Source of the DNA: Chrysochromulina tobinii
Lineage: Eukaryota > Haptophyta > Prymnesiales > Chrysochromulinaceae
NCBI GenBank assembly: GCA_001275005.1
Contig: JWZX01003073.1
Span: 1 to 64,000 of the forward strand
Direction of reading: 5' to 3'
Length of the DNA: 64,000 nucleotides
Of the stretch, positions 1-61,743 are shown one piece after another (position 1 is the first letter of the stretch; each line of letters begins with the position of its first letter). The notes below the pieces were generated by a model. It ran no database searches. It was not told the origin of the DNA and saw only the letters and a program-made list of their open reading frames with translations. A program made the position numbers and the translations under genes.

Positions 1-164
1 GCACTGTGATTCCCCTCTGATGGCCACTCATTACCCTTGATTGCCCCCCTCATCAGGTGCTCGCTCAGGAGGCGAAGCTCGCACTGTGATTCCCCTCTGA
101 TGGCCACTCATTACCCTTGATTGCCCCCCTCATCAGGTGCTCGCTCAGGAGGCGAAGCTCGCAC
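1..164. repeat. Tandem direct repeat, 80-bp period, spanning an intron-exon border
   Basis: Bases 1-84 recur exactly at 81-164. Each unit has a pyrimidine-rich stretch ending in CATCAG followed by GTGCTCGCTCAGGAGG. The second CATCAG/GTGC border (136/137) is the acceptor of the coding exon that follows. The array is cut by the window edge, so its full copy number is unknown. It may be a real tandem duplication that created an intron, or an assembly artefact. Confidence 0.9.
57..136 (+). other. Candidate 80-nt intron whose 5' end copies the next exon
   Basis: It starts with GT at 57 and ends in CAG at 136. Its first 28 nt are identical to the first 28 nt of the exon at 137. The last 43 nt align without gaps (about 35 of 43 identical) to the end of the CDPK intron at 42034-42118, including CCTCTGATGGCC and the terminal TCATCAG. 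The upstream exon is not visible, so this is inferred from junction logic. Confidence 0.55.
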
Positions 165-8055: not shown

Positions 8056-8958
8056 TCATACCCAACCAACGTTGTGCAAGGCTTGCACGATACACGCACC
8101 CCAGAGTTCATGGCCTGCTGCATTCGGATGCAAACGGTCAGGCATCAGGTCACGGCGAACAATCTCGGGCCGAGTGGAAGCTGGGGCAATTCCAGCTTGC
8201 GGACCCGCGCCGGACGCAGCGGCAGCCAAGCCGAGGTCTGCCGCGGTGCTCTTCTTGGCGGGTGACTGTGTGTAGAACGGAGCGCCGCAGTCCACGTAAC
8301 TGACGCGGCTTGGATAGAGCCTTTGGAGATGGGAAGCCACCGCCTTCTCGAGCGCCGAGTTGACTGCGACCACATCGTCCGTATAGTGGCTCGTTCCCGA
8401 GGAAGCAGTGCGCGAATGCCTGCGCTTGCGCTTGTCGCCACGAGGAAGCAGCGCATTGATGAGCAGGCGTGTGCGCGTCGCATTGAGAAGGTAGCTTGCG
8501 ACGGCGAGAATGCCGCGCGTGGTGTCACCAACGGAATGCCCGTGGCCTAAATTGTTGGTACCAATCAAGAGGTTCACGTTGAGCCACGGGTCGTTCTTCA
8601 TAAGTGGTGTGAATTCGCCTGCTTGCAAGCGCCACAAGAGATGCTGCGTGCAATCCGCTGAGATGGCAAGTGGCAACGGAGATGGCCAATGCTTCGCCAG
8701 AGTACTGTTGAGCACGCCCGGCACGCCACGAGTGCGTGGCATCGTCTTGCAATACGACGTCCCACGCCAGCTCTCTGTGATGCTGTCGCCAAAGAGCACC
8801 AGTCGCGGCTTGTGCTGTTCGACCGCTGGTGTGTAGGTGGCTGCAGCGATTCGCATGCTCTCATGGCACGAACGCCAAGTGTAGAGCTCTTTGCGGTTGT
8901 GCACGCTCCATGGTAGGGTGCGCGGCGAGGGCACGTCGGGAACTTCGTTATGTGACAT
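8056..8958 (-). CDS. SGNH/GDSL-type hydrolase
   Basis: The protein has about 300 residues and starts at the ATG at 8958 (MSHNEVPDV). The SGNH blocks are present in order: block I LVLFGDSITESW (catalytic Ser), block III LLIGTNNLGHG (Asn of the oxyanion hole), and block V DRLHPNAAGHELW (catalytic Asp and His). The spacing resembles platelet-activating-factor acetylhydrolase-like and carbohydrate-active members. It should hydrolyse an ester, with substrate unknown. No signal peptide is visible with this start. A 61-nt GT-AG intron just upstream (8976-9036) appears to lie in the 5' UTR, because the preceding frame is closed. The gene is head-to-head with the DnaJ gene, with under 200 bp between the start codons. 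Confidence 0.82.
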   Translation of the reverse strand: MSHNEVPDVPSPRTLPWSVHNRKELYTWRSCHESMRIAAATYTPAVEQHKPRLVLFGDSITESWRGTSYCKTMPRTRGVPGVLNSTLAKHWPSPLPLAISADCTQHLLWRLQAGEFTPLMKNDPWLNVNLLIGTNNLGHGHSVGDTTRGILAVASYLLNATRTRLLINALLPRGDKRKRRHSRTASSGTSHYTDDVVAVNSALEKAVASHLQRLYPSRVSYVDCGAPFYTQSPAKKSTAADLGLAAAASGAGPQAGIAPASTRPEIVRRDLMPDRLHPNAAGHELWGACIVQALHNVGWV

Positions 8959-9144: not shown

Positions 9145-12100
9145 ATGGAAAAGGTGACTTTTGGCTTCTACCACGCGCTCGGCGTCACGTTCGACGCCGA
9201 TGAGCAGGCCATCAAGAAGGCGTTTCGCAAGCTGTCCCTGAAGCTGCACCCTGACCGCAACCCGGGTGACGAGTCCGCCAAGGACAAATTCCAGATCGTC
9301 AACTCGTCCTACGCATGCCTCTCGGAGACGCCGCGTCGGGAGCAGTACGATGCGATGTTCCGCATGCGCTGCGTCCTCGACCAGGGAAATCTCACGGCAG
9401 ATCAGCTTCGCGAGCTCGAACTGGATGCAAACTACATGTTCCCCGTGCTTGGCGTCAAGACCCTTGGCATGCGTGAGGAGGCCGTGCTGATGCTCAACCT
9501 CGAGGACGGGCTGCCAAAAGCTAGCGTTGAACGCTGGCGTAACGGCGAGAACATCGACCAGCGGCCGCTCAGCTCGCTGCGCTCCGTGGACGCGGACGAC
9601 AACCCGCCGAACGGCGTCAAGCTTGCATTCCGAGAGGAGAGTAGCAAAACGGAAACGAAGGTGCACCTGCTCGCGCGCTCGGTCGGAGAGCGCGGGACAA
9701 TCGTGCTGCTGCTGCGTACGCTCACCAGCGCCGGTGCGAAGCTGCGCACCGACGACCGCCTGATGCCGCCCCCGCCGCGGCTCACGGCATGGCTAAAGCT
9801 AAGCAGCACGAGCTTGATGTACGGCAAGCAGAGTGTTCGCGTGTTCGCGCTGCTGGGGCGCTCGAAGCTGCTCCTCTTCTCGGACGCGCAGCTTCGCCAG
9901 CTGAAGCAGCTCATCACGCTCGAGACGGGCGCCGTGCAGCTGCGCCACACGCCAGGAGAGCAGGAGTTTGAGCTCACCATCAACCCGCCTACCTCGCCAA
10001 ACACGAAGAGCTCTGCATTTGGAGCCGGGAAAGACTTGCTCAATATGGGCAAGTCGATGTTCAAGCTCACGCTGAGCGCCGAAACGGGCTTCGTGGCGGG
10101 TCAGTGGGCCACAGCCATCTCCGAAGGGCTCATGCAGGCGGGACTCAACGCCGAGGGTGTCACTATGCAAGCGTCGGCCTCAGGCGCCACAGGCGCGGGC
10201 GCACCCACCAAACCGAAATGGGGGCCGGAGATGATGGGGGCTGCGCCGGCGGACCCGTTCGACATGCCCAAGAGCTCGAAGGCGGCAGTGGGGAGCGGGG
10301 GCGGCGCGAGCGCCAAGCCAAAGACCGAGCAGGTCGCCGAGGCCGACCTGCTCGGCGATCTGGGAGGCGGCGATGAGGCCGACCTCGTCCGAACGGCCTC
10401 ATTAGGATTGAATTCCGACCTGCGCGAGCTCGTTGCAAAGCCGACGGCCGACATCCAGGCGGAAGAGGGCGAACCCGTGGCGGATGAGCCGCCGGAGGAT
10501 CCGGAGCCGAGCCCACATCAGTCCAGCCGACCGCCAATGACTGGCGGTGCTCCAACACCCAACCTCATGGGGTTCACTCCGTCGGGTGGGATGGGCACGC
10601 GGAGCAGTAGCCAATCATCAGGCAGCCTCATGGATATGATCGATGATGCACCGCTGATGGGGCTGTCGATGAATACCCCGCCGATGGGGATGTCGATGAT
10701 TACCCCGCCGATGGGAATGATGAATACGCCGATGGGGATGTCGATGAATACACCGCCGATGGGGATGTCGATGAATGTACCGCCTTTGGGGATGACGATG
10801 GCACCGTCGTCGATGGCACCTATGGTGTCTTCGGGAGCGGCAGGATCGGCGACGTCCTGGCAGCGGCAGCTCACTCTGAACAAGCCGATGCAGGGCAGCC
10901 GGCTTGGGCTCGATATCGAGCAGGGGAGTCTCCCGGATGTGGTGGTGGTGTGCGAGGTCAAGGCCAACTCGGCTGCTGAGAAGGCGGGCTTGAGGGTGGG
11001 CGAGCGGCTGTACACAGTCGCCGGCAAGCCTGTGATGAACACCGACAACGCATTTGACTTGCTCTGCGACGCCATCGGCGACATTAAGTTGACCGTTGGC
11101 CCGCTGACGCCGCCGCCGTCAGTGCCCATGCATCTACCTATGGCACCACCGTCCGACTCTGCCTTCAGCGACTCTGCCTTCGGTTTCATGGCTGGGGGCA
11201 ATGGCGGTGGCGGCAGCGCCCCTGTGTCACCGTCGACCACCGTCGGTGACTCTGCCTTCGGTTTCATCGCCGCCGCCGAGCCGGCACCGCCGCTGGTTTC
11301 GTCACCGCCGCTGGTTTCGGGCTTCGGCTTTATGGATGGCAGCAATGGCGGTGGCGGCAGCGCCCGGGTGTCGCCGTTGGGCGGTGGCGGTTCTGCCTTC
11401 GGCTTCATCGACGTCGGCAATACCTCGCCCCCGGCCGACCGACCGCCACGAGCGAGGCCACCCGCACCCTCCATCCCCTTTCCCGTGTGCGAGGGCTCGG
11501 AGCTACTCGTCGAGTGGCAGCTGCCTGTGTGGGCAGGCGACAGTGCAGGCGCCGTGCACCACTATGAACTCCAATGGCGAAACGAGGAGGAGGATTGGTG
11601 GACGGCCTCATCGAGCTCGCGGACCATCGCGCTCACGCGTGCGCGGCTGCGGGGACTGCGGCCGGCCTCAGCCTACTGGTTGCGCGTGCGCTCCATCGGT
11701 GCGGACAACGGCAAGTCCGACTTCTCGAGCTCGATCTGGCCAGCCCTCACGCCCACCTCGCCTCCGCAAGCCTTCGCCAACTCCGACGGCTCGGTACACG
11801 TGTTCCTCGAGCCGCTGCCGCCCTTTGCGACCTACTACGAGGTGCAGTGGATCCCAGCTGCCAAGTATGCCAGAGGCCCCAAAGTCGCGTTAATGAATTG
11901 GAAGCTCGCTCAAGCCGATGTGCTTCCGAACGGCCAAGGTGGCGCAAACGGCAGCGCGGGCCCTTGGTCAGCCCTTGCCGTCGCTGCGAATGCATGGAAG
12001 GGTGCCACCATGGTCCTGCGGCAACTGCCGCGCGGAGGCCCATACCTATTCCGCGTGCGGACGGCCAGCGAAGATGGCCTGACCTCGCCTTACTCGGCGC

Positions 12101-12420
12101 CCTCCTCTGAGGTATCCACGGCGGTGGGCGCGTTGCCGCCCACCCACTTTCCGTGGATGCTGCCGGACACCAACGCCATGGTGAAGCAGCTCGCCGAGCT
12201 TGGCTTGACAGCCGAGCAAGCGACAATTGCACTGCAGCAGACCGGAGGGACGAGCGTCTCAGCTGCTGCTGATTGGCACTTTGGCAAAGCTAAAGCGATG
12301 GCAGCGAAGGGGGCATGGGGTGCGGCGGCCAGAGGGGCACCAGTGGCGGCAGTTGCGCCGACACCGCCGCCGCAAGCAGCAGCAGCAGCAGCACAACCGC
12401 CACCCAATCTTTTGGATTGA
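9145..12420 (+). CDS. DnaJ-PH-PDZ-FN3-UBA multidomain protein
   Basis: This is a single 1,091-codon frame with an ATG at 9145. Residues 1-75 form a J domain with the HPD motif (KLHPDRNPGDE), the signature for stimulating an Hsp70 ATPase. Residues about 210-330 look like a PH-like fold (VRVFALLGRSKLLLF, later FKLTLSAETGFVAGQWATAI). A Met-rich low-complexity stretch (MGMSMNTPP units) lies near 490-565. A PDZ domain is at about 572-652 (SRLGLDIEQGSLPDVVVVCEV, AEKAGLRVGERLYTVAG). Gly/Ser/Ala linkers with repeated SAFGFM/I precede two fibronectin type III-like modules (768-992). A UBA-like three-helix motif (MVKQLAELGLTAEQATIALQ) is near 1005-1050. It is probably a scaffold linking Hsp70 to membranes, PDZ ligands and ubiquitin. 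The domain identities are good; the combined function is inference. Confidence 0.85.
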   Translation: MEKVTFGFYHALGVTFDADEQAIKKAFRKLSLKLHPDRNPGDESAKDKFQIVNSSYACLSETPRREQYDAMFRMRCVLDQGNLTADQLRELELDANYMFPVLGVKTLGMREEAVLMLNLEDGLPKASVERWRNGENIDQRPLSSLRSVDADDNPPNGVKLAFREESSKTETKVHLLARSVGERGTIVLLLRTLTSAGAKLRTDDRLMPPPPRLTAWLKLSSTSLMYGKQSVRVFALLGRSKLLLFSDAQLRQLKQLITLETGAVQLRHTPGEQEFELTINPPTSPNTKSSAFGAGKDLLNMGKSMFKLTLSAETGFVAGQWATAISEGLMQAGLNAEGVTMQASASGATGAGAPTKPKWGPEMMGAAPADPFDMPKSSKAAVGSGGGASAKPKTEQVAEADLLGDLGGGDEADLVRTASLGLNSDLRELVAKPTADIQAEEGEPVADEPPEDPEPSPHQSSRPPMTGGAPTPNLMGFTPSGGMGTRSSSQSSGSLMDMIDDAPLMGLSMNTPPMGMSMITPPMGMMNTPMGMSMNTPPMGMSMNVPPLGMTMAPSSMAPMVSSGAAGSATSWQRQLTLNKPMQGSRLGLDIEQGSLPDVVVVCEVKANSAAEKAGLRVGERLYTVAGKPVMNTDNAFDLLCDAIGDIKLTVGPLTPPPSVPMHLPMAPPSDSAFSDSAFGFMAGGNGGGGSAPVSPSTTVGDSAFGFIAAAEPAPPLVSSPPLVSGFGFMDGSNGGGGSARVSPLGGGGSAFGFIDVGNTSPPADRPPRARPPAPSIPFPVCEGSELLVEWQLPVWAGDSAGAVHHYELQWRNEEEDWWTASSSSRTIALTRARLRGLRPASAYWLRVRSIGADNGKSDFSSSIWPALTPTSPPQAFANSDGSVHVFLEPLPPFATYYEVQWIPAAKYARGPKVALMNWKLAQADVLPNGQGGANGSAGPWSALAVAANAWKGATMVLRQLPRGGPYLFRVRTASEDGLTSPYSAPSSEVSTAVGALPPTHFPWMLPDTNAMVKQLAELGLTAEQATIALQQTGGTSVSAAADWHFGKAKAMAAKGAWGAAARGAPVAAVAPTPPPQAAAAAAQPPPNLLD
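10640..10810 (+). repeat. Met-rich coding minisatellite
   Basis: Imperfect units of about 27-30 nt (coding MGMSMNTPP and variants) repeat about six times inside the DnaJ-PDZ gene. All units keep the frame. Confidence 0.8.
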
Positions 12421-41618: not shown

Positions 41619-42738
41619 TCACCTCTGGCTCTTCCTTTCCTTCGGATCGGACTTGAACAGCGAGACGAACTCCTCAAAGGTAATCTTGCCGTTGCCGTCG
41701 GTGTCGGCGAGGTTGAAGAGCTGCTGGATGGTCTCTGGCGTAACGTCCGCCGGCACGACCCTGAGCTTCGTCATCATCACGCGCAGCTCTTGCTGGTCGA
41801 TCGTGCCGTTGCCGTCCTGGTCGAAGACGTTGAACGCGCGCTTGAGCGCCATCTCCGAATGGCCGTAGATCGGACCGACCGCGGCGCAGAACTCCTCAAA
41901 GGTGATATTGCCCGTGTTGAGCACGTCGGCTGCCTTGAAGACCAGCTCCGCCTGCCCCTCGGGCGCCCCCAGTGAGCGCATCACCTTACGCAGCTCCTCG
42001 AGCTCGATGGTGCCGCTGCCGTCGAGATCGAACCTGATGAAGGAGGCAATCAGAGGCCATCAGAGGCCATCAGAGGTCATCAGAGGTCATCAGAGGTTCT
42101 CCGCCGTCGAGATCGAACGTTTGAAAGGCGGCCTTGAGCTCTTCGAGCGCGCCCGGCGGCAGCGAGGGCTTGTGCAGCTTCTGCGTGTTGCCGCGCATGA
42201 CCCCGGTCACCGGCGTTCGGCCGACCAGGGACGCGGCGCGGATAGCCGCGCGCCACGTGCGTCGCATGTCGTTGAAAACGCGCAGCTGGGCAGTGGTCGA
42301 GTCGGGGAGTGGGGCCGGCGAGGCGCTGTGCCCGAGCACCCAAGGGGAGGCAAGCAGGTCGGCCACGCGCGCACGCTTGGTCGGGTCGGGGGCAAGCAGC
42401 GAGAGGATGATCGACTTGGCATCGGACGACACGGGCTTCCAAGCCGGATCCTCGAAGCTCCACGCGCCGCGCTGCACCCGGCGGGCGACTTCCTCGTCAG
42501 GGGTCGCTCCTTGAGGATCGAACGGGTGGTAGCCGCCGAGCAGGATGAATAGAATCACGCCGAGGGCCCACAGGTCCACTGCCTCATCGTAGGCCTTCCC
42601 GGCGAGCATCTCGGGCGCCATGTATGCGATCGTCCCCGTGCGGCCAACCATATCGGGCATGCCCTCGCCGAAGAACTGAGCGAGCCCAAAGTCGCAGAGC
42701 TTGATGTCCGAGTGCTGGGATTTGTCGACGAGCAGCAG

Positions 42739-42774
<36 letters not shown>

Positions 42775-43398
42775 ACCGTGCAGGTGCTCGAGAGCTCTTG
42801 CCACCTGGAGCACGACGCCCGCCGCGTCGGCTTCCGAATACAGACCGCCTTCGCAGATGCGGTCGAAGACCTCGCCGCCCTTGACAAGCTCTAGCACGAG
42901 CGCCCAGGCGTTGGGAAGCTCGAACTCGTCCACAAGGCTCACGATGTGCCGATGACGGCCAGCCACTCGCATCACATTCATCTCACGCTCGAGCGCCGCC
43001 TTGTCGCTGTTTTTCTTGTCGACTAGTTTAATGGCGCGCACGATGCCCGTCGCCTTCTCCGTCGCCTCCTTGACCACCGCAAAGGCACCTTCACCGAGCG
43101 TCCTGCCCATCGTGTAGAGATCGCTGTGAGCACCAGACCCTGCCGTCTTGGACGAGCCGTCGAAGAGGCTCAGGCTCTCAGCTGGCTGCCGCTGCCGCCG
43201 ATCGAGCTCGAGAATTGCAAGACCGCATCCCGTCGCAGCCACCGCGCCACGTCGTAGGAGCGCTGTAGATAGCCTGCCGAGATGTCGGCGATGCATACGG
43301 GCTCGCCGGGGCGTCGAGCCGAGGCGACAAACATGCCTGTGGAAAATGTTTGGTCCTGTTTCGTCAACCCTCGTACACTTTATTCGCGCCAAAGACAT
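41619..43398 (-). CDS. Calcium-dependent protein kinase (CDPK)
   Basis: Exon 1 (43398-42119) and exon 2 (42033-41619) flank an 85-nt intron and encode about 564 residues. The kinase domain has the Gly loop LGEGAFAVVK (residue 101), catalytic Lys in RAIKLVDKK (124), HRDLKPENLLL, DFGLAQFF and GTIAYMAPE. All catalytic residues are present. A junction region (LPPGALEELKAAFQTFD) leads into four EF-hands: DLDGSGTIELEEL, ADVLNTGNITFEEF (degenerate loop), DQDGNGTIDQQEL and DTDGNGKITFEEF. This is the standard CDPK layout of plants, alveolates and algae, in which Ca2+ binding frees the kinase. No N-terminal Gly-2 for myristoylation is present. The first EF-hand is split by the intron, and splicing is required to complete it. 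Confidence 0.93.
42034..42118 (-). other. 85-nt introner-like intron in the first EF-hand of the CDPK
   Basis: The donor is CAAAC/GTTCGATC and the acceptor TTCATCAG/GTTCGATC. The first 16 nt of the intron (GTTCGATCTCGACGGC) are identical to the first 16 nt of exon 2. Between the repeats lie five copies of a CCTCTGAT(G/T)(A/G) decamer and a 43-nt tail that aligns with the intron at 57-136. Splicing restores a perfect EF-hand loop. Confidence 0.9.
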
Positions 43399-48127: not shown

Positions 48128-51100
48128 ATGTTCACACAGCGCGCTGGAAGCTTTGAACGTGCATCCCGGCGCAAGTCGGAACATGCGGCAGCCGACAAAA
48201 TCGCCAAACATATCTGCACTGCGGAAACAAACCACAGGGAGAGATGCGGAGCCGACCTCGAGAAGCGAGATGAGCTCACCCTTATCGTTCAGCAAGCAAC
48301 GGGGGATGCGCACGCCGCCATCCTGGCTCCGATCGCCCCGCAGCTCGAAGTGTTAGCGCTCATCGAGGGCCTTCTTGATGACGCCGCGGGGTCGCGTGTG
48401 AGGAACCCCGATTCAGTACTTTGGAATAGCATCGACCAGCGGCTCAGCGTAGCCGGCCTGAAGGCCGGTAGGGCCAGTGCTGGCCGATGCGGCTCACCCC
48501 TTCACGCATTGAGCGCTGCTCTTGGACCCGACGGCGATCTGTCAACTTCTTTCGCGCATCGAGAGCTTGCACGCCGAATCGCCGACAAGCTTGACTCGGT
48601 GGTGCAGGAGGGGCCCCAACGCATAGGAGACGTGAATATTCTCAACCTCGTCACTTGGGGTCGGTTGCCCGACGCCGTCGTTGACGACAGCGAGATCGAG
48701 CCCAAGAAATGGCAGGCGCTCTCCGCATATATCCGCGACGATGAAGACCTTGACCAAGTTGGGGCGGACTGGCTCATCTTGGCGCTCGCATGCCTCGTGC
48801 TCGGCCGCAAAATCCTCGTGTACAGCGATTGTTTCAACGTTGCCGTTCGCTTCACACCCGAAGATACTGATGGGGCTCGCTTTGTGCCCGCCGCACAGCT
48901 TCCACCAAGCTCTCAGTGGATCCGATTGACCATGCTCAACGGCCAGTTCTACACTCCCTTGGAGGCGGTCCCCACTCGCGCTGATGGGCTGCTGGCTAAG
49001 CTTGACGAGATGGCCTCGCTCATGGACGTGCAGCTCAAGAGCCAAGCCGCAGGGCTGCCGGCTGTGATGCTCCTCGGCCTAACTGGTGTTGGCAAGAGCA
49101 CGATGATGCACATCCTCTCCGGCAATCAGATGTATGCATGCATCTGCCCCACCAGCGTCTTGCCACTGCGGTTACCATGATGCTGACGCCCGCAATGCGA
49201 TGATGCACATGCAGGTATCTGTTTGACAACGGCACCAACAAGTACGTCAGCGTGAAGGACGAGCAGATTCAAGGCTCGAAGATCGGACTCACAACCAACT
49301 CAGAGACTAAGATGGCGAACGCAATCCGGATCCAGGTACCGTTTTCGGATCCGACGTGGCTCCTTATTGACACGCCAGGCTTTGGAGACACAGAGGGTCC
49401 AATGGACAACATTGTCAGCGCTGTGTCGATAGCCAAGGTGCTGCACGCTCGCCTGAAAACACTGCCAGCCTGTCCAGTCGTTAGTCCAGTCGCCAACCGC
49501 CGGTGTACTCACAGCCGCTTGTCCCTTCGACGCAGGTCACGTGCATGTGCTCCTCCCTTCGAGTCATTATGCTCATCAACCAGAGCGACATTGTGAACGC
49601 GAGGATGACCGCATTTGTCGACCTGGGTAAGACGATCTCGAAATTGTTTTCCGACTTCGAGACAGCGTCTAAATCACTCACGATCTGGGTGCCCAAGAAG
49701 TACACGGATAATGAGGTCGACGAAAAGCGCCTCACGAAAATGCTCGCCAGGGCTCACAAAGACAAGACGAACGAGGAGGCTCAGAGATTGCTCGGGTTGC
49801 TGCTACAGCAGCTCGATGTTGAGCCTCTTCGCGTCGTCAAGTATTCAGAAGAGGGCGGCGGATCGGATGACGACAGCGACTCCGATGCCGAGATGGTCGA
49901 GAAGCCCAACCCGGGCTCCGCCTCTGACGTCACGAGCCCCGCGAGCGGCGCGTCGCCGCCGCCAAAGCGTGCGCGGACCGACGACGAGGAAGATCTGAGT
50001 GGCGAAGAGGAGATCACGATGAAGAAGGTCACGTTCGACGTCAGTAAGCTCCTGCGCCAGCTCGACCACATGAAAGCGCTCGATCGGCCTTCGGAGCAGG
50101 TCTTGCTTCCCCTCTCGAGCGAGTCGCAAGAGCATCTGCGAGAGGTGGCACGTGAGGTGCGAGACCGCTGCGAAGCTGCTGTTGAGCTGCCTGACTTTGA
50201 GACGATTGCCAAGGGATTTGAGTTGCTCTCTCGCATCATCGAGCGACTGCGGGAGGCGGAGCCCGGTGCGACCGACCCACGTCGCGCGACAATGGTCAGA
50301 GACGTCAAGGAGGCGACGAAGATCGTCATCGCGCAATATGTGCTAGCGAAAGACAAAGTCAAGGCGCGCATCGAGGAGCAGTTGAAGCTGCGCATGGAAC
50401 GCCTCGGCAATGCACTGAGTGAGACGAACTTGAGCAGCCAACTGGATCAAGAGGCGCTTCACGCCTTTTCGTGGGCTCGCCGCTGCCTCGGAGCCGCTAA
50501 ACAGATCGAAACGTACGTCGAGAGCCTTCCAACGGAAGAGTCGCTTCAGTTACGCCTTGAACTTCTGCTCAGTGGGCTATGCGATCAAACGATCAAGCTC
50601 GAGGTATCGGACCCAGCCTTCAAGGTGACCCTCATTAAGCTTGGTCAAGTGTGCTCGTACTTCCAGACCGATGCGACTGACAGCATCTTTGCTGCTGTCG
50701 GAAAAGAAGCGGGAGAGTGGCGGCTGACTGTGCTCAAGGCTCTCATCGAAAAGATGGCGTCGCTAAAAGAGGATGTGAGCAACATCATTAGCCTTGGCTA
50801 CCGGGACGTCGAGGCCGCAATAGCTCGTTCCATCGCGCAGCACGACGACAGTTTCCCGAGGTCTGCGTTCGTCGCCGAGGAGGCGGACAATGCGGCCGCT
50901 TTTCACTTTGATCAGGCGGGAGAAAAGCTTCGAATCATGCGGGAGGCGCAGCAGCGCCTCAGCCCATTGGCGCCGGAGCTCACTGGCGTGCTCGAGAGCA
51001 CCTGCGAATGCATTCTTGCACGGCTCGATGCCTACCTTCAATGCGTGATCCAAGCGGCCGCCGGTGCCACCGTACAGCTCTCGACTCCGCAGCTCATTGA

Positions 51101-54100
51101 GCTGACGACTCATCTCGCTGCTCTGAGCAAGGCACGAAGCTCGTTCAAGCTCCGCATTCACTTTGAGCCGTCTGAGACGTCTGCAACTACTGGTGTCGAG
51201 ATCATGGACGCTTCGACTCTGGCCGCAGATGACTCGTGGGTCGCTCTGCCTCCGCTTGGCACGAATGCACTGGACATGCGCTACCGGAATGGTATTGATT
51301 GCATCGTCGCGTGGCATGCCCGCGTGTTGGAACCTGTGCTCGAGGATGTTAAGAAGGCGGAAACGTACTCGTCAGACGCTGACTGTGTGAGCCGAATCTG
51401 CGCGCACCGCGCAGCGCTCGAGGTTGCGAAGCATCTCTTCCTCCTCGGGTCCAACTCTCGCACGGGCATCGAGCCCAAGGTGGCAGAGGCCATTCAGGGT
51501 GCGACCGCGGGCCGGCAGAAGGATCTTGAGCATAAGATTCACGGCGAGCTCGAGCGGTACACGAAGGAGGCGATCAGTGAGGTGCAAGACCTCGATAACG
51601 GCCGATGCTCGTACGCCGACTTCCGTAAGAAGCTGACACTGCTCGAGGCCGCAGCGTGGTGGGATGCTCTTGCGCAAGAAGCCACGATCGGCAAGGCACT
51701 CGATGCCATGTGGCGTGCCTTTCACGACCGGGAGGTTCGCCTCGTGTCAGGGGCCGAGAGCATTGAGAGTCTCCTGCGCAGTGGCCGCCACGAGGCCGCA
51801 GCGGCCAAGTTCCGCAAGCTCAGTGAGATGAGCCCACTGTGGTCGACCGGGGGTGCCGGCACTGAGCCGAATGGCAAGGCGCACGAGGCCAAGGATCTCT
51901 TCGACACGTGCGTAGCTAGCATTCAACAGGTGCTTGCATCGAAGATTCTCGCCGTCCAACAGAACTTGCTTCGCGAAGGCTCCTGGGCCGCATCCGATCC
52001 ACCCCGTGTCGACAAGGCTGTCTTGGACAACCTCAAGCGCGCCGATCAGTTTGTCGATCTAACGACACACATGGAAGCTCTCGGGGACTGTCTTCAAGTT
52101 GGAGAGCTGCTGCATGCAGGCTCTCTGTGCAAGAGCAGGGTCGAGAGCGAGTTCCGCGACATGAAGGCCCGTGTTGAGGAGCTGGCCAATGCCATAGCCA
52201 AGGGGTCGAGGGAGCGCCTCGAGACGGCATGGGCGCGCGCCAAGGACGTGTATGAGGTGCTGCGTGTGCTCTACAGCAAGGCCGCCTATCCCGCGCTCTT
52301 CCAGATGCTCTACGAGCATGTTGAGGGCGACTTTCCGGATTTCGTGCAGATCGAGACTGCCTTCTATCGGAGCCTCAAGATGGCGAGCCAGAACTTTCCG
52401 AGGCTGAAGCTCACTGACCAGTCAGTGCTTACTCAGACGCTGAAGGAATTTGAGGGCGTGCTGCCCGCGACGGACGTGATGGTAGCAGGGCTCAAGAAGG
52501 ACTTCGACACGCGTCACGAGGCGATGGCGGCGCGTCACTCCGATAACATCGACAAGAACAAGACGGACATATGCAACGACTTCCTCAAGCACACGTACAC
52601 CTCCTCGACGTACCGAAAGATGCAGGATCTCTACCGCGGCCCTGGCGAAGACTCGCACGAGTTCGCCGAGGCGTGCCAAGAGCTTCAGGGCAGCCTCGAA
52701 AGACTTGTGAAGGAGATGAGCACGGGGATTCTCATCTTCAAGCTGACCGCGACGAATCATTCCGAAGCGCTCGGCAGTTTCCCTCTCGTCGAGCGCATCG
52801 TCGCACCGTGGAACTTCTTGCAGGCCGCGCTCATCACCCAGCACAGCACGTTCCTCGAGAGGTTTTATAGCAACATGGTAGAGAAGGAGCCTGGCACAGT
52901 GCCACCGGCACCGTTCGTCCTCAAAGAGTCACTCGAGCAGGTGGTAGCGCTGATGGTTGCCAGCCTCAAAGATTCGCTCGAGCCACTGGTCAGTCAGTTC
53001 TGCCAGAATCATCTCGAGACGGCCGCAGCTGGCATTCAACAGATCGACATGGTGATCGAGCAACTGCGCTCAGCCCCGGAACTGTACGAGAATGCTCGTC
53101 ACTTGATCGATGAGGTGAGAAATCGGCAGAAGGCACACCTGGAGTCCCTCAAGTCAGACAGCTCTACGGCCACAGATGGTAAGAATCTGAAGGCATGGCT
53201 CTCGAACCGAGCGGGCCTCCTGCGGCAGCTTGATGCGCTGCAGCGGAAAGGGAACATGCAAGCCGAGTACGAAGCCACATCAGACGCCGTTATCCTACAG
53301 ATCAGGGGAGACTTCAAGGCGAGGCTTGCGCCTGTGCTCGATGGCCACCTCTGGCGCAACATGAAGAAGGACGAGCTCGAGTCCGCACAGTCTGCTGTCT
53401 CGGCATATCAGCGCATCCTTAGTGATTTGCCGGCAGGCACTCAGGATCTCGCGATCAGCGAGGACGACCTGAAAGAAGTCAATGTGCGGATTCAGGTGAA
53501 GAAGCGCAGCTTCGTCGTGGTCAATTTCGAGTCCAAGGAGCCATCTGAACAGGCAAGCATCATCTCGGACCACCTGGCCATGCCAACCGAGTACTCAGAC
53601 TTCGTCGAAAGATATCGAGCCGGATACAAGAAGGTTAGCGAAGACGCGTATCAGATCATGATGAACAAGCCAGTCACGGCGTGGGCACCTCGTGAGCTCA
53701 GCCGCGTAATGATTCGGATGCGCAGCTACGTACAATATGACACCTTCGACACCGCAGGCCCTGCCGATCTTGAGCCATATCATAAGTGCGAGAATAAGCT
53801 CCTCGAGCTGCATGCTCAAGGATCTGCTTGTCTCACGGCTATGATTCAGGTGCTCTCGGTCCCTGGCGGCGATGCTTCTTCTGAACTTACGGGCTACCTG
53901 AAGGGATATCTGGAGCTCCTCCGTATTGCGGTCAACGCAATCGAGTGTAGCGCATCCAATCGGAGCGACCAGCTGGCCATAAGACAAGTCGACGATCACG
54001 TGTACTGCCGAGGACACGACCAAGTGATCATTGACTTTGAGACGGCACGGTCACATGCTCACCATGCCATCGTCCAGGCCACTGAGCTTTTCGGGCTTCT

Positions 54101-57100
54101 GCTCAAGGAGTTGCAGACGCTGCAGATGCACTCCATGACGCCAGCTCGATGCCCGGCCGACCTCAATGCAATGGGCACGGCTCTGCGCCGGCTGCAGCGT
54201 TGGGAGGGCAAGCCCGGTGAAGACTCCATGTTCGACCTCATCGTTCAACTTGAGCAACTTCTCCCCAAGAAATCCGTGGCCTCCGCGTCCGCAGATTCCA
54301 GCAGCGTGTCGTCTGAGCAAACGGCGGCTGATGTGATCCGACTACTCGCAACGCACGCCACGCGAGTGCAGAACGCCGGCACCGTGATCTGCATTCAACT
54401 CGACAAGACAAAGGAGCTGCTTGATGCCCCTCGCGATCCGCAGAATCCCGTGCCTCTGCCCAAGGAGCCGTTCGAGCTCGCTCTGAGCAAGCAGATGGAC
54501 GATCTCGTCAACGAGCTCTCGTGGAAGGTAGACGACGTGCGCTCAAAGCGGGCGTGTTTGAAGTCCGGAGTGATCGAGCAAGTGTCGGACTTCAATGGTG
54601 AATTCATCAAGCTGCTGCAGACTCAGAAGTACACGTTAGCAGGCCAAGCCCTCAAGGGACTTAAGCGCTTCGAGTTCCTCATGGAGATGAGCGAGTTCCG
54701 GGAATGCCGTGGACGTGCCGCCGATTACAACGAGGAGATGAAGAACCATGCAAAACGCCTCGAGGACCAAGCAATTGCTGCTCTGCCTTCGGCACGTGCT
54801 CCCGAGGACCTAGCCGAGCATTTGATCCGGCTCAAGAAGCTTGAGGATGGTATTCCATCCTCGACGAGCGTTGCCCGAGAAGCGATCAAGGTGCTTCTGG
54901 TTGCGCTACAAAAGAAGTTCCCGCAGGGCATGGTCATGCTCGGCGCGTGCCTCAAATCAATTGATCCTGTCCTCGGCAATGCGATTGTCAACTCCTCGGA
55001 GATCTTTGCCGCTCTGCGCGTCACGCTCTTCAATGCGCGCACGCAGCAAGCCTTTGGAGACGTGCTCACGGGCCTCATAGGTGAGCCTGACATGGATAAG
55101 ACGGTGCTCGAACGCCGATACAATGAGTTCAAAGACACGTACGATGGCGACGTGAAGTGGGCGCTCGGTGGGGGCTGCTTTGGCGAAGAGGTGAATTATT
55201 GCGCCTCTAAGGCCAAACAGCGCACAAAGCTGAGTATGACCAAGCAGGCAGGAGCACTTATTGGCTTCACACCAAACGCGCTGGACAGCCTGCCTAAGGT
55301 GCTGGCTGCGATCTGTGCACTCTGGAGCGTGCAGTTTTATCTGAAAACGCGCGATCCGACCTCGAGCTTGGCCGACGCGGCAATCCGCCAGCCGCACGCC
55401 GTGCAGGTGCTGTGCATCTTGCGCCTCCTCGGAGCTGTCGGTAAAGGTGGGGTTCATCTCGAAAACCACCTCGCAGAGGTGCCCACCGGAGAGGGCAAAT
55501 CACTCGTTCTCGCCGTGACTGCTGCGACCCTTGCCCTCTACGATTACCACGTCGATTGCGTCTGCTACAGCAACAACCTGTCCAGTCGCGACCATGATGC
55601 CTTCAAGGACCTGTTTGGCGCACTCGGTCTCTATGATGAGAGCTCACCGCGCATCCGGTATGGCACCTTCGAGCAGCTAAGCGAGCGCCTCATGACAGAG
55701 AAGCACGGCCTGATTCGCGAGCAGATGCTCGCCTCGCTGCAGGGCAAGAAGCTCGCAGCCGACAAGCTCGCGAAGCCTGCTATTCGTCGCGTCTTGCTCA
55801 TCGACGAGGTCGATGTGTTCCTCGACCCAAGTTTCTTCAGCGGCATCTATCGGCCGGGCTTGATGATGCATGACGAGCGCGCGGCGGCTCTAATGCGTGC
55901 AATTTGGGCGAACCCGTCGCAGAACCCATTAGAGCTGGCTGAGTACAAGGCACTCTTCACGCAGCAAGCCATCGTCGCGAAGGGATACGAGTGGTTCGTA
56001 GAGTCAGCAGCCCGCGAGATGCAGCGCACCGCTGCCGATTTCAAGAAGAAGCCTCAGATTCGCGGCCGCGATTACGAACTCACCAACGGGTGGGTGTGGT
56101 ACAAGTCGCAGGACAGCCTGGTGCGCAGCGACCAGCTGAACTACTCGTACATGACGAATTGCGTCTACCTATATGAGCACGAGCGTGGCAGCGTCGAGGA
56201 GGCCCAGCTGCTCGAGCACGGGCTGCCGCTGCATGCCATCTGCGGCGAGTTTTCATATGCTCTGCTGCCGTCCACCAAGCCGTACAGCACCGCCGTGCCC
56301 GCCTTTTACAACTTCATCCTTGGCGTGACTGGCACACTCCGCGAGGGAAGGCTGCCGCCAGAGGCCCGCGACCTGCTGCGCGACCAGATCTTGATCAAGC
56401 ACATGACCTACTGCCCATCCATGTACGGGGCGCTGCAGAGGAACTTTGACAGCAAAAGCAAGGACGACGTCCAGGTGGCGTCAAACTCCGGCGAGCACTT
56501 CATTGCGATCAACAACGAGATCGTCAAGCGGCTGAAGCCGACCGACCACAAGTATACGGGCAAGCGTGCCGTGCTCGTCTTTTTCGAGAGCATCGAGGAG
56601 CTCGATCGCTTCTACAACTCGAGCTACTTCGCACGGCTGAAAGATGGCGCCAATTTACTCACCGAGGTCACGGCGAAGGAGCCGGAGGAGCGTGACTCGC
56701 TCGTCTCGAAGGCCACGCGGCAGGGACAGATCACGCTAGCGACGCGGGTCTTTGGGCGCGGCGTCGATTTCATTGTGGACGACGAGCACATGGTGACCTG
56801 TGGTGGTTTGCACGTGCTGCTCACCTTTTTCCCCCGCGACGTGCAGGAGGAGGTTCAGATCATGGGTCGGAGCGGGCGTCAGGGTGAGAAGGGCTCGTTC
56901 TCGATGGTGATGAACAGCCTTCACCTCCAGGACTTTGGAGGAGACATGGCGCCGGCCGACACGATCAAGACGTGGGTGACAAACGCTGAGCTGTATCAGG
57001 AGATGTCGAAGATTCGGTCGGCCCGCGCAGCGGATGACTTAGCGGAGCGACTTGCTCAGGCTGAATCCGCAAAGGAGAAGCATGATAAAGTCGCGACAGC

Positions 57101-57914
57101 TCTGCACTCGTACCAGCGACGCCATGACTCCAAACAGCTCTGCGAGCTGCTCAAGAGCTACAACCGCATCGCGAGTTCGACGACGAGCCGCACGCTCATT
57201 TTGATCGACGTGACCTGTTCGATAGACTCGTTGATCGAGAAAACCAAGGCGTGCATCGGCGAGTTCTTCGATCGCTGCCAGAAGGTCTTGGATGAGGAGG
57301 GTATCGTCTCAGGCTTCGAGCTACAGCTTGCTGGGTTCTCAAACTACAACGTTCGAATGGAGGAAATCCTCGAGGCATCTACGTGGGAGCTGAAGCCGCA
57401 CAATTTATCGCTGTTCCTGAATTCGCTCCACGTTCGCGGCGGTTGGGGTGAGGAGGCGATCGAAGTCGGCTTGATGCATGCTCTGTCAGAGCACCAAAAG
57501 CGTCCCATCGACCAGATTATCATCATCGGTGACGCTCCTGCCAATTCACTCTCTGATATTGATCTTAAGCGTGGTGGCGACGGGAAATCCTACGGCCGTG
57601 ACTACTGGGACGCGCAGAGGCCTCCCTGGGCTCCATCTGGGATCCCCAAGAGAGATGCGGCTGGGATGCTGCAAGAGATCCAAGCTGTGAAACCAGTGCC
57701 TCTTCACTGCTACTGGATGGCCGGCAGAGCCAAAGATAGCTTCAATGCGATCGCAGCGTTGACTGGCGGTGGTACTTCGCAGAAGCTTGACGTCAACTCA
57801 AAAGAGGGCGCACAGCTGCTGACCGATGCTGTTTGCAAGCAGATCCTAACGTCGCTCGGAGGGGCGGCGCTCGCGGACGCCTACGAGCGGATGAAACCGT
57901 CTTTTAGCCGCTAG
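48128..57914 (+). CDS. Giant OTU-like / GTPase / SecA-like helicase / vWA protein
   Basis: There are three exons: to 49131, 49215-49476 and 49536-57914. Introns are 83 and 59 nt, both in phase. Length is about 3,214 residues if the ATG at 48128 is used; the frame is open from 48023, so a 5' exon is possible. Residues about 110-280 look OTU-like (LHALSAALG; DWLILALACLVLGRKILVYS; LNGQFYTPL), but the catalytic Cys context and His seem lost. A P-loop GTPase follows: GLTGVGKSTM (317), DTPGFGD (387), INQSD (G4). A helical region of about 1,900 residues precedes a SecA-like motor: EVPTGEGKSLVL (2403), LLIDEVDVFLD (2510), QIMGRSGRQGEKG (2868). The C-terminus is a vWA domain (2973-3093; LILIDVTCSIDS, IIIIGDAPAN). 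SecA couples ATP hydrolysis to polypeptide movement, and the other domains suggest ubiquitin or membrane recognition. The combined role is unknown. Confidence 0.85.
49132..49214 (+). other. 83-nt intron in the giant SecA-like gene with duplicated exon sequence
   Basis: The donor is CAGAT/GTATGC and the acceptor CATGCAG/GTATCT. The 13-mer CGATGATGCACAT occurs in the upstream exon (49101) and again at the intron's 3' end (49198). Splicing completes the P-loop helix in phase. Confidence 0.85.
49477..49535 (+). other. 59-nt intron in the giant SecA-like gene
   Basis: The donor is TGTCCA/GTCGTTAG and the acceptor TTCGACGCAG/GTCACG, phase 0. It joins the GTPase G3 region to the strand that carries the G4 motif (VIMLINQSD). 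The donor is not canonical beyond GT, so a nearby alternative is possible. Confidence 0.65.
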
Positions 57915-58741: not shown

Positions 58742-61177
58742 CTATGCTAGCTTCAGCAACCAGAGAACAACCACGTGGGACTCGTCGTAGATGCAGAATT
58801 CGTCGTACAGCGTGTTCCTATGAGCAGTGGAAGGCCCAGCATGCTGTGCACCACTCAGATTGAAGCGGCAGATGAACATAAAGTTGCCATTGGTGCCGCC
58901 CTTGCAGTATCCCTTCGACTTGTTTGGATCAGGTGCACCGTACAGTCCCTTGCCAAGCATGCCCGGGGCCGCATACCGGAGCAGAAGCCCCTCGTGCTCG
59001 ATATTGGCGGCCGCTTCTTGCGAGCACCCGTGGAAGAGCAGCGTGTCGCACCCGCCATATCCCTTCGCATGCTGGTATGCCTGCAGCGGGTCGATGTTGA
59101 ACGTTGAGCTCTTCTTGAACGCACGCAGCGCAGTCTCTTTCTGCACCATCACCGCGCTCGCCACGCGAAGATGCCCGTTTGAGCGCCGCTGCCGAGCATC
59201 AAAGAAAGCTCTGATTGCTTGCTCCGACACGCAGTTCTCAGCGAGCTCTAGCCAAAGCACCACGCCTGGCGCGCTTTGCTTCCGCCTCGCCTCTTCGTCC
59301 CGCAGCTGCTTGAGTCGCGCGTCCTGAGTTGCCAGGTTCTGTGAAAGCTGCAAGAGTTCACCTTCCGCCCTGCGCTTCTGGTCTTGAAGCTGACTAGCAC
59401 TCTCAGCCGCCTCTCGAATACCACGCTCCGCCTCCGCAGTGCGCTGCAGCAGTGCCGCCTTGGCCGCGCCGAGCCGCTGATGTTCCTGCGCCACTGCTGC
59501 CTCCGCATGCTTGACAACGGCCTCCTGCTTGTCAAGCAGTCTCTGGCGTTCCGCTGCTTCCCAACGATGCTGACGCTGGAGCCGCTCCTGTTCCGCCAGA
59601 GCCTGGCGCTCGGCGCCCGTGTCCAGAAACGGATGCCGCAATGCCTCCGCCGCGCTCATCCGCCGCTGCAGAGCATCAGCCAGGTTGGTGGCCGGCGGTC
59701 GGTCGAGGTCAAGAAGGCCGTCTAGAAAGGAGGGCAGATGATCGCCACCCTTCGAAGAGGCAGAAGCAGTTGACCAGCGCTGAAGTTGCTCGGTTGGAGG
59801 CGGGCTGAAAGTAAAGTCTCCTTCGTCGCAGCACATCAGGAGCGAGCAGACTCCGAAGGCGTACATGTCAGTTGCGGCCGTAGGCTGTGCGCATGCTTCG
59901 CTCGAGCGCATCTCGGGTGCAATGTACTTGGCTGTGACGACGCCGAAGGTCGAGCTGGCCACACTAGCGACCCAAAGGCTGGTAGCGCAAGGAGCTTGCT
60001 CGCGCACACCCTCAAAATCAGCCAAGTGAGCCGTCTCCTGAGATGAGATGAGCACATTCTCGAGCTTGAGATCTCCGTGCGCATAGCCGTGCGTGTGAAG
60101 ATGATCGAGTGCCTGTGCGAGCTGCATGAGCACGCGCCGCCGCTTCCAGAGCTCGGGCGCTAAGCGCGCACGCCACGAAGCGGCATCACCGTTCGCGTAA
60201 AATGGCAGCTGAACGTACGCGACAGGCATCGGTGTCGGTGGGTTCTTGGGTTGAAAGACTGCCTCGACTTGTACGATGTGAGGATGCTGTAGCTTACGCA
60301 GAGCCTCCACCTCGGCGACCAGACGCTTCCACTCCCTACCAGCGGCATCCAGCTCATACTCCTTGAGCACGCACGCAGTCGAACGGCCATGCGAATCGGT
60401 TCCGAACTCGGCACTAAAGATGCGATGGCGCGAGCTCCGATGATCAGCAATCACTTGCAGTTCTGAATACTGATCGAGCTCACGCTCTACAAGAAGACTT
60501 TGGATAGCCGCTCCGTCGATGGCACCGAGGCGAAGCAGCTGTTCCTGTGCGAGGAGCTCAGGAAAGTGCGTGGCCATACGCCAGATGCGCATGCGTTCGT
60601 GACGCAGCTTGGCTTCCGCCTGCTGCAGCTCGCGCCTGGCCTGGGCGGTAGCTTCCGCTGCTCCGGGAGGTGGCCGTCGCTTTTTCTCAGCGTGGCTGGC
60701 TTCGTGTAGATCGTCCGCAGCCTTTTCCCACTCGGCATGGAGCGTATGGAGCAGCGCTGTGTTCGGGAGCTGGCCGCTGAGGTATGCTTGAAGGTCGGCA
60801 AGCTCATCACGCAAGCTCGGAAGCCGCTGCAAGTAACCCCCGACGGACGGAAGCAGCGAGCCCTGCAGGGCCTCAAGTCGTTGCTGCTGCACGGGCGTTT
60901 GGGCAGTTGCCGGGTCGAGTAGATGTGCGGTCTCATCCTGCAGGAGCTGGTAGCGCTCCCCGTGGTCTTCACCGACACGAACGGCTCGTGATAGCTGCTC
61001 GACGTGAGCTTGTCTGGCTGAGTCACGACTCCTGACAAGCTCGAGTGTCGGAGAGGTGCCGTTGACGGCGGCACCCCGGATGAGCTCCTGGAGTTGCCGC
61101 AGCTGACTGCGGCTAGCTTCAACTTCCTCAAGGATGCGCCTCAGAGCATCGGCGATCGTGATGTCTTGCACAGCCAT
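58742..61177 (-). CDS. Pseudokinase-PARP fusion protein
   Basis: The protein has about 811 residues from the ATG at 61177 (MAVQDITIADALRR). The frame is open to 61240, so an upstream exon is possible. Residues 1-215 are coiled coil. A protein-kinase fold follows: VLKEYELD (Lys, about 267), HPHIVQVEAVF, HGDLKLENVL (HGD replaces HRD), ADFEGV (DFE replaces DFG), KYIAPEMRSS. The catalytic-loop change is tolerated in some kinases, but the DFG change argues for weak or no activity. A second coiled coil leads to a C-terminal PARP catalytic domain (713-811): TLLFHGCSQEAAANIEHEGL (His), GKGLYGAPDPNKSKGY (Tyr), and YDEFCIYDESHVVVLWLLKL. It would transfer ADP-ribose from NAD+ to a target. It is intronless and lies convergent with the SecA-like gene. 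Confidence 0.82.
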   Translation of the reverse strand: MAVQDITIADALRRILEEVEASRSQLRQLQELIRGAAVNGTSPTLELVRSRDSARQAHVEQLSRAVRVGEDHGERYQLLQDETAHLLDPATAQTPVQQQRLEALQGSLLPSVGGYLQRLPSLRDELADLQAYLSGQLPNTALLHTLHAEWEKAADDLHEASHAEKKRRPPPGAAEATAQARRELQQAEAKLRHERMRIWRMATHFPELLAQEQLLRLGAIDGAAIQSLLVERELDQYSELQVIADHRSSRHRIFSAEFGTDSHGRSTACVLKEYELDAAGREWKRLVAEVEALRKLQHPHIVQVEAVFQPKNPPTPMPVAYVQLPFYANGDAASWRARLAPELWKRRRVLMQLAQALDHLHTHGYAHGDLKLENVLISSQETAHLADFEGVREQAPCATSLWVASVASSTFGVVTAKYIAPEMRSSEACAQPTAATDMYAFGVCSLLMCCDEGDFTFSPPPTEQLQRWSTASASSKGGDHLPSFLDGLLDLDRPPATNLADALQRRMSAAEALRHPFLDTGAERQALAEQERLQRQHRWEAAERQRLLDKQEAVVKHAEAAVAQEHQRLGAAKAALLQRTAEAERGIREAAESASQLQDQKRRAEGELLQLSQNLATQDARLKQLRDEEARRKQSAPGVVLWLELAENCVSEQAIRAFFDARQRRSNGHLRVASAVMVQKETALRAFKKSSTFNIDPLQAYQHAKGYGGCDTLLFHGCSQEAAANIEHEGLLLRYAAPGMLGKGLYGAPDPNKSKGYCKGGTNGNFMFICRFNLSGAQHAGPSTAHRNTLYDEFCIYDESHVVVLWLLKLA

Positions 61178-61743
61178 GCCAGCAACTTCAAAGAGCTCAA
61201 CGGCGAGGATGCGCTCATAATAGGTGCTGCCATCGTACAAGAGAGCGCTTAAGGCCGCTTCACTATTGGCGAATTGGAGAAGCCCAGTCGACCTATGGAC
61301 AGAAGCGTTGAGTCAGGACACGATCTATGGATGCAGTAGGGATGTGAGCTCGCATACCCATCTATCCTCACGTCCAATACATCGCCATGGCATTGGAAAA
61401 TCCTGCGCGAGGTGAGCATTCTGTTCAAAATGCGAGAGCTCATGTCTGCTGGAGGTGGCACGCACCTTTTCAAGTGGCTGGAGTTCAGGCCATCCACATT
61501 TCGGACGCGCACGACTGTCGTCATCGACCACGATCGAGTCCGACGGAATGCGATGCTCGGGGCGGGGCGTACTGTGCTTTCCCTAGCGAGCGAGCTCCAT
61601 GATCGCGCTTCGCGTGAGCGTGAAGAGCCGCCGTGAATTCAAAGAAGGGCCTTATCTCCACTTTTTCTTTTTGCCGAAATTTCCAGGCGGGGTGTGCGGA
61701 CAAGTCCTATTCACAGATTCCTCGCGTCCCGAGAAATCTTCGA
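61178..61743. other. Divergent intergenic region
   Basis: This separates the kinase-PARP (-) and pseudouridine synthase (+) starts. The frame preceding the kinase-PARP ATG is open to 61240 and may hold part of a 5' exon. The frame preceding 61744 is open from 61633. No TTGAC array was seen. Confidence 0.5.

Follow-up and report, generated by a model that had tools for sequence, protein, structure and literature searches.

The origin of new spliceosomal introns is a long-standing question, and introners, similar introns found in unrelated genes, are regarded as a major source of them. According to the accessible portion of the 2022 survey by Gozashti et al. (PMC9860276), introners are present in 175 genomes, the target duplications of earlier introner families are 3 to 9 bp long, and at both intron ends the survey required similarity within ten intronic bases. 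The original prediction for the intron described here, which referred to introners as known from Micromonas and Aureococcus, was too narrow in this respect. Routes proposed for intron gain include tandem duplication, break repair, intron transfer by recombination, and template switching by reverse transcription (PMC3443670, in the sections available), and Rogers and Bendich (2025) report direct repeats of 4 to 30 bp (mean, 11.4) at or near the borders of 213 introns of several classes, which the excerpted text ascribes to insertion (PMC11782384).

The window, by which we mean the whole 64,000-nt stretch of Chrysochromulina tobinii DNA analysed, contains a CDPK-like kinase gene interrupted by an intron whose beginning duplicates the beginning of the next exon (Table 1). 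The duplicated 16-mer, GTTCGATCTCGACGGC, occurs within the window only at these two places (42103-42118 and 42018-42033), and both the repeat and the decamer array that had been claimed for the intron are present. Splicing from GT 42118 to AG 42034 gives a predicted CDPK-like protein of 564 aa with an intact EF-hand, TFDLDGSGTIELEE, and the reading frame of the unspliced gene hits a stop 15 residues into the insert, in keeping with the further claims that the donor GT comes from duplicated coding sequence and that splicing restores the EF-hand exactly. The array decamers each hold a CTGAT-like word resembling a branch site, which we take to be a candidate for that role. The ungapped 35/43 match of the last 43 nt to the intron end at 57-136 is also reproduced; the same 43 nt match themselves when shifted (33/43 and 32/43) and match the tandem copy at 14-56 (35/43), and besides these no window site reaches at least 30/43. 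A public protein, P0001, is 94% identical over 91% of the query and runs uninterrupted across the kinase junction; it may represent a spliced transcript or an intron-less gene, and its source contig may be DNA or cDNA. Kinship judged from proteins is mixed: the best-ranked hit with an organism name is from Prymnesium parvum (51%) for the kinase protein and from Pycnococcus provasolii (52%) for the LrgB protein.

Table 1. Positions of the two introner introns of the window and of their associated features
Feature	Position	Strand	Remarks
GT-AG introner intron of the CDPK-like gene	42034..42118	-	85 nt; EF-hand restored on splicing; EF-hand_6 across the junction
First 16 nt of the kinase intron, duplicating the beginning of the next exon	42103..42118	-	Source of the donor GT
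16-mer repeated where the downstream kinase exon starts (FDLDG)	42018..42033	-	
GGAGAACC after the 16-nt repeat in the kinase intron	42095..42102	-	No counterpart at this place of the kinase exon
Decamer array (CCTCTGATGA-like units, each holding a CTGAT-like word)	42043..42096	-	Period 10, 5.4 copies
Family tail TGATTGCCTCCTTCATCAG, including acceptor AG	42034..42052	-	
Upstream coding exon, CDPK-like gene	42119..43398	-	Predicted start codon is that of the longest frame
Downstream coding exon, CDPK-like gene, up to the stop	41619..42033	-	564-aa spliced protein
Second introner intron of the window	57..136	+	5' end copies 28 nt of the next exon perfectly
Exon copy of the 28-mer belonging to intron 57-136	137..164	+	
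Exact tandem duplication (80 bp) comprising exon copy and introner	1..164	+	Contig start (C1914, first base)

The 80-bp tandem duplication around the second intron may be genuine or an effect of the assembly end, and the left of its introns is not visible whole because the duplication sits at the contig start. Other open reading frames of the window are 58742-61240 (minus strand), coding for a protein kinase domain and a PARP catalytic domain; 49503-57914 (plus strand), whose 2,803-aa product, in a eukaryote-like genome, has SecA DEAD-like and helicase C domains; and 9145-12420 (plus strand), where DnaJ, PDZ, and fibronectin type III domains are accompanied by a UBA-like match slightly below the cut-off.

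The tail is abundant in the window's own genome (53.15 Mb, 2,253 contigs). A genome-wide search of the kind suggested with the original prediction finds 4,492 matches (2,175 + 2,317) to TGATTGCCNNCNTCATCAG at up to two mismatches and four (1 + 3) to the reversed pattern, which supports the introner claim; within the window the same pattern has three matches at up to three mismatches, all exact, a count that 3 of 100 shuffles also reach. The exact tail TGATTGCCTCCCTCATCAG occurs 879 times in the genome and is followed by GT in 590/879. With up to four mismatches allowed, about 359 kb of sampled DNA, the window and overlaps included, contains 217 distinct tails, with GT next in 145 and GC in 30; these stretches were selected for many tails, with 40 loci drawn from one tail variant ending in GT, and because the sample is therefore GT-enriched, the share of GT is estimated by 590/879 and not by 145/217.

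Upstream of many GT-flanked tails lies a copy of the exon that follows them. A copy scoring at least 10 is present within 450 nt upstream in 72/145 of these tails and, with exons swapped, in 10/725, so that repetition of the downstream exon by the intron's 5' end, as proposed for the kinase intron, is detectable in about half of the GT-flanked sample. No copy reaches this score in the other 73/145, and age or another route must account for them. The 72 tails of the 217 that lack a following GT were left out of this count; 34 of them also score at least 10, many being tandem units of introner sequence. Exclusion of four introns whose copy held array words or was too long, and of ten that had several tails, left 58, with exon copies of 10 to 42 nt (mean, 23.1; standard deviation, 7.4); the 25 mismatch-free copies among them span 10 to 33 nt (mean, 21.1; standard deviation, 6.1). 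The copy in the intron starts with GT in 57/58, as the downstream copy does by row selection. The filtered introns have a median length of 83 nt (range, 51 to 229), copy length is negatively correlated with inserted length (Spearman, -0.43), and the inserted part has a 10-nt period (0.42 identity at lag 10). The 3' end is shared across the family, and the 5' end is locus specific in most of the 58, being shared in the subfamily of the kinase intron described below.

Several sampled loci depart from this arrangement. At L042 (minus strand; 2376 on the reverse complement) and L040 (plus strand, near 4353), the exon duplicate lacks the initial GT, and a donor near the end of the duplicate, located by eye, would add 24 nt and about 33 nt to the mRNA, respectively. 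Introner tails are found in tandem units of 21 nt at L043 (plus strand, tails ending at 6600-6684), 77 nt at L036 (plus strand, 6635-6789), 60 nt at L047 (minus strand, 8068-8188 on the reverse complement), and 71 nt at L035 (minus strand, 3983-4054 on the reverse complement); these are introner sequence becoming minisatellites.

The inserts behave as introns lying in the sense orientation of coding DNA. Reading frames assigned by codon usage on the two sides agree in 39/42 introns with the insert removed from GT to CAG and in 6/42 with it kept; the 42 are the filtered introns other than 12 directly after another tail and four with short flanks, and with the kinase gene, whose exons are also in the training set, taken out, agreement is 38/41. 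Codon usage places 93 of the 217 tails in sense and 4 in antisense, with 48 unclear and 72 having flanks that are too short; beside clearly coding DNA, tails are therefore in sense in 93/97. Applied to pieces of its training exons, the method finds the right strand in 393/420, and as a control, random pieces of L031-L050 yield 258 sense, 279 antisense, and 663 unclear. Among six proteins chosen by eye from 14 spliced ones, five have a Pfam domain across the junction (an asparaginase C-terminal domain, an endonuclease/exonuclease/phosphatase domain, an ADP-ribosyltransferase, an EF-hand, and a Tudor-knot), and the sixth is without a match. Because of the tail count, the agreement of frames after removal, and the sense orientation, the tail-bearing inserts are, as judged from sequence, a genome-wide introner family. 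The reversed-pattern and swapped-exon controls rule out chance or a simple repeat.

Local spread along a contig is unsupported, the introns of one contig being no more alike than distant ones (0.216 versus 0.214 for 134 introns; 817/2,000 permutations reach the observed value). No stable RNA fold was found in the window introns (z, -0.11 and 0.84) or in two tail models (z, -0.83 and -0.81). The last 20 nt of the tail (for example, 42034-42053, minus strand) start with CTGAT and end with ATCAG, forming a 5-nt inverted repeat in 148/217; these words are mostly fixed by the search pattern, and the 20-mer fold is not clearly better than those of shuffles.

The inner end of the exon copy, where it meets the array, is not at a fixed distance and tends to fall on a short match to the array. 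Overlap at this junction averages 1.18, 1.28, 1.42, and 1.23 nt at word lengths of 5 to 8 (scorable in 37, 30, 24, and 22 of the 58 introns, respectively) and 0.53 to 0.55 nt in simulations, and it is because the overlap exceeds that of the matched simulations, 0/500 of which reach the observed value at each word length, that the end is placed on such matches. Matched simulation was used in preference to plain permutation because maximal matching inflates overlap. For the odd 22-mer of the L003 intron, the genome search gave itself (0 mismatches) and one place at three mismatches, and no donor.

The kinase intron belongs to a small subfamily with a common 5' end. GGAGAACC is present at 12 genome places at up to one mismatch, five of them exact, including that of the window (the exact places were read), and it recurs behind the same 5' end and before the same array on contigs C853, C1406, C1468, and C2012. 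The 24-mer GTTCGATCTCGAAGGCGGAGAACC has seven genome places at up to three mismatches, among them C836 and two at C1406, and its reversed pattern has none. The motif GTTCGATCTCGANGNC has ten exact genome places, six in subfamily introns or their exons and four elsewhere; at C853 the shared 5' end lies directly behind another tail, and a one-mismatch match to this motif is at 291-306. The kinase, C1406, and C2012 introns were read whole, and those of C853 and C1468 in part. The original prediction had treated the 16-nt repeat as a target duplication. That the kinase insertion alone made it is not supported, as the first 24 nt of the intron, 8 beyond the repeat, are also present in other introns, and the reading of the repeat as newly duplicated in the kinase gene is accordingly set aside. 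Because those 24 nt recur elsewhere, the kinase intron appears to have arrived with a matching 5' end at a target that resembled it.

The exons downstream of these introns differ in how far they match the shared 5' end. At C1406 all 26 nt are present in the exon, as they would be where the sequence originated. At C2012 the match of exon and intron extends over 18 nt with one mismatch; beyond it the exon diverges, the intron going on with the donor-like AGAACCTC, and the kinase exon departs in the same manner after its 16-nt match; such resemblance of a recipient site to the flank of the donor intron is found in this one subfamily. The C1406, C1468, and C2012 introns are in phase 1 in a similar G-[SL]-I-S frame (by eye), and these members may be paralogues. 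The kinase intron is in phase 2, and because the frame is different, its match is one of nucleotides and not of protein homology. The residue at the kinase match is F, and Y occupies this position in 12/12 of the closest homologues, F being common in more distant ones; this one residue would be consistent with donor exon sequence having been brought into the target.

Homology-assisted template switching during DNA synthesis is the mechanism we infer for the exon copies, and we give it an even chance of being correct. Each introner copy supplies the acceptor side only, consisting of the branch-site-like decamer array and the fixed end CTCATCAG, and the donor GT is the first dinucleotide of the 10- to 42-nt copy of the following exon, such that splicing restores the exon. 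Synthesis of the target exon would halt, and the new DNA end would anneal to an introner by a short match, either a few nucleotides in the array or, alternatively, 16 to 18 nt where the target is similar to the 5' end of the donor intron itself. Copying would then run through CATCAG and switch back to the target at a GT lying some tens of bases upstream; for the kinase gene, the donor would be an intron starting GTTCGATCTCGANGGCGGAGAACC. The base after the donor GT is G or A in 43/46 of the filtered introns not directly after another tail and in 256/522 GT sites of training exons, and selection for donors, instead of the return step, may account for the GT that marks the outer edge. A further proposal, which we regard as rather unlikely, is that the introner is self-guiding, the acquired 10- to 42-nt exon copy steering further copies to matching sites. 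These would be the same exon (giving tandem copies), paralogues, and chance look-alikes such as the kinase EF-hand. If true, this would amount to intron homing without a dedicated endonuclease, by way of a carried target sequence.

The main rival, which explains most of the same facts, is target-primed reverse transcription of intron RNA, a reading we consider possible and hold only tentatively. An excised intron RNA ending in CATCAG would be copied by a LINE-like enzyme at a nick before GT, the other strand would be cut 10 to 42 nt away, and the cDNA would pair by microhomology, with gap filling leaving a long, variable duplication. LINE insertions are marked by a fixed 3' end, a variable 5' end, a duplication of variable length, and microhomology at the 5' junction, and these hallmarks match the variable copy length and the inner-end microhomology observed. 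The almost exclusively sense orientation of the tails also favours this reading, as do 26 RVT_1 matches in the genome, 22 of them above the cut-off; 19/26 lie in open frames longer than 1,000 aa, and these places are possible LINE-like elements. However, target-primed reverse transcription alone leaves unexplained the 16- to 18-nt match of two recipient exons to the intron 5' end, and the kinase F, against Y in the 12 closest homologues, suggests by its one residue a carry-over of donor exon, which is impossible for an excised intron RNA. The choice between template switching and reverse transcription hinges on whether donor exon bases travel with the intron.

Repair of a staggered double-strand break, in which the filling of long overhangs yields the exon copy and introner DNA serves as captured filler, is improbable. 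It accommodates the varying copy length, gap-fill direct repeats are among the proposed routes of intron gain (PMC3443670, as far as its available text goes), and direct repeats of 4 to 30 bp near the borders of 213 introns (PMC11782384, likewise in part) agree with it. Filler capture, however, predicts neither the same tail nor a recurring 5' end without strong selection, and both thousands of the same tails, the sampled ones abutting an exon in one orientation, and the recurrence of one intron's 5' end in other genes therefore argue against it. That most copies stem from recombination among existing ones, by which introns would move with duplicated genes or expand in tandem between exon copies, is more doubtful still: the 80-bp and other tandem units, which show that exon copies may also recombine, the 12/58 filtered introns that begin directly after another CATCAG, and the possible paralogy of the C1406, C1468, and C2012 members speak for it, but nearly all of the 58 exon copies differ in sequence, and the phase of the kinase intron is unlike that of the C1406, C1468, and C2012 introns (by eye). 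A non-autonomous DNA transposon, the usual kind of introner and the common explanation of introners in the available part of PMC9860276, with direct repeats of 10 to 15 bp often found at MITEs according to the Amoebophrya paper (PMC7789003, in part), is very improbable here, since a transposase is expected to leave one fixed, short copy length and the perfect copies span 10 to 33 nt, the inner end varies and coincides with microhomology, and no terminal inverted repeat is seen by eye save CTGAT/ATCAG within the tail.

The long, sometimes perfect exon copies often preserved at the sampled junctions are a readable record of the insertion step and separate models of it, a fixed short duplication pointing to a transposase and microhomology to template switching or target-primed reverse transcription. 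Surveys that require similarity at both ends may miss introners with a 5' end derived from the host exon, and the 58 introns described here would probably fail the both-ends criterion given in the accessible portion of PMC9860276 at their 5' ends. In the literature searched, which is represented largely by partial texts, an introner family with exon copies of 10 to 42 nt is not described, and the sections on introns available from a paper on Phaeocystales genomes (PMC12480563) make no mention of introners.

Comparison with described systems, each represented by part of its text, places the family among introners while setting its exon copies apart. It resembles the introners of PMC9860276 in consisting of similar introns in unrelated genes, one type there carrying the acceptor and taking its donor from the duplicated target, and it differs in the length of the exon copy, which is variable and 10 to 42 nt here and 3 to 9 bp there. 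The introner elements of Micromonas (PMC3879977) are likewise of many copies and conserved sequence and lie only in sense in transcribed regions, but a long exon copy is not described in the text available, which favours reverse splicing. Those of Amoebophrya (PMC7789003), also invasive introns of a marine protist with direct repeats at exon-intron borders, have repeats of 3 to 5 nt and inverted repeats of 8 to 20 nt in the portion accessible, whereas the introns here have long direct copies and GT-AG borders, with no such inverted repeat noticed by eye. The stwintrons of Hypoxylaceae (PMC12403724) are similar introns at new positions, for which an RNA intermediate is suspected, and unlike the present family they are without target duplication and splice-site co-option in the text at hand. 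Exon duplication can also give a splice site by the routes in the available sections of PMC3443670, but these are separate events, and here one repeat family forms the acceptor at thousands of places. Direct repeats at intron borders are shared with the introns in the excerpt of PMC11782384, which belong to no family of similar introns and whose repeats of at least 22 bp are 72 to 86% alike, whereas 25 copies here are perfect at 10 to 33 nt and start at splice sites. The family works like introners of the acceptor-carrying, donor-co-opting type, its unusual feature being the long, variable exon copy, which does not agree with the fixed, short duplication of a DNA transposon.
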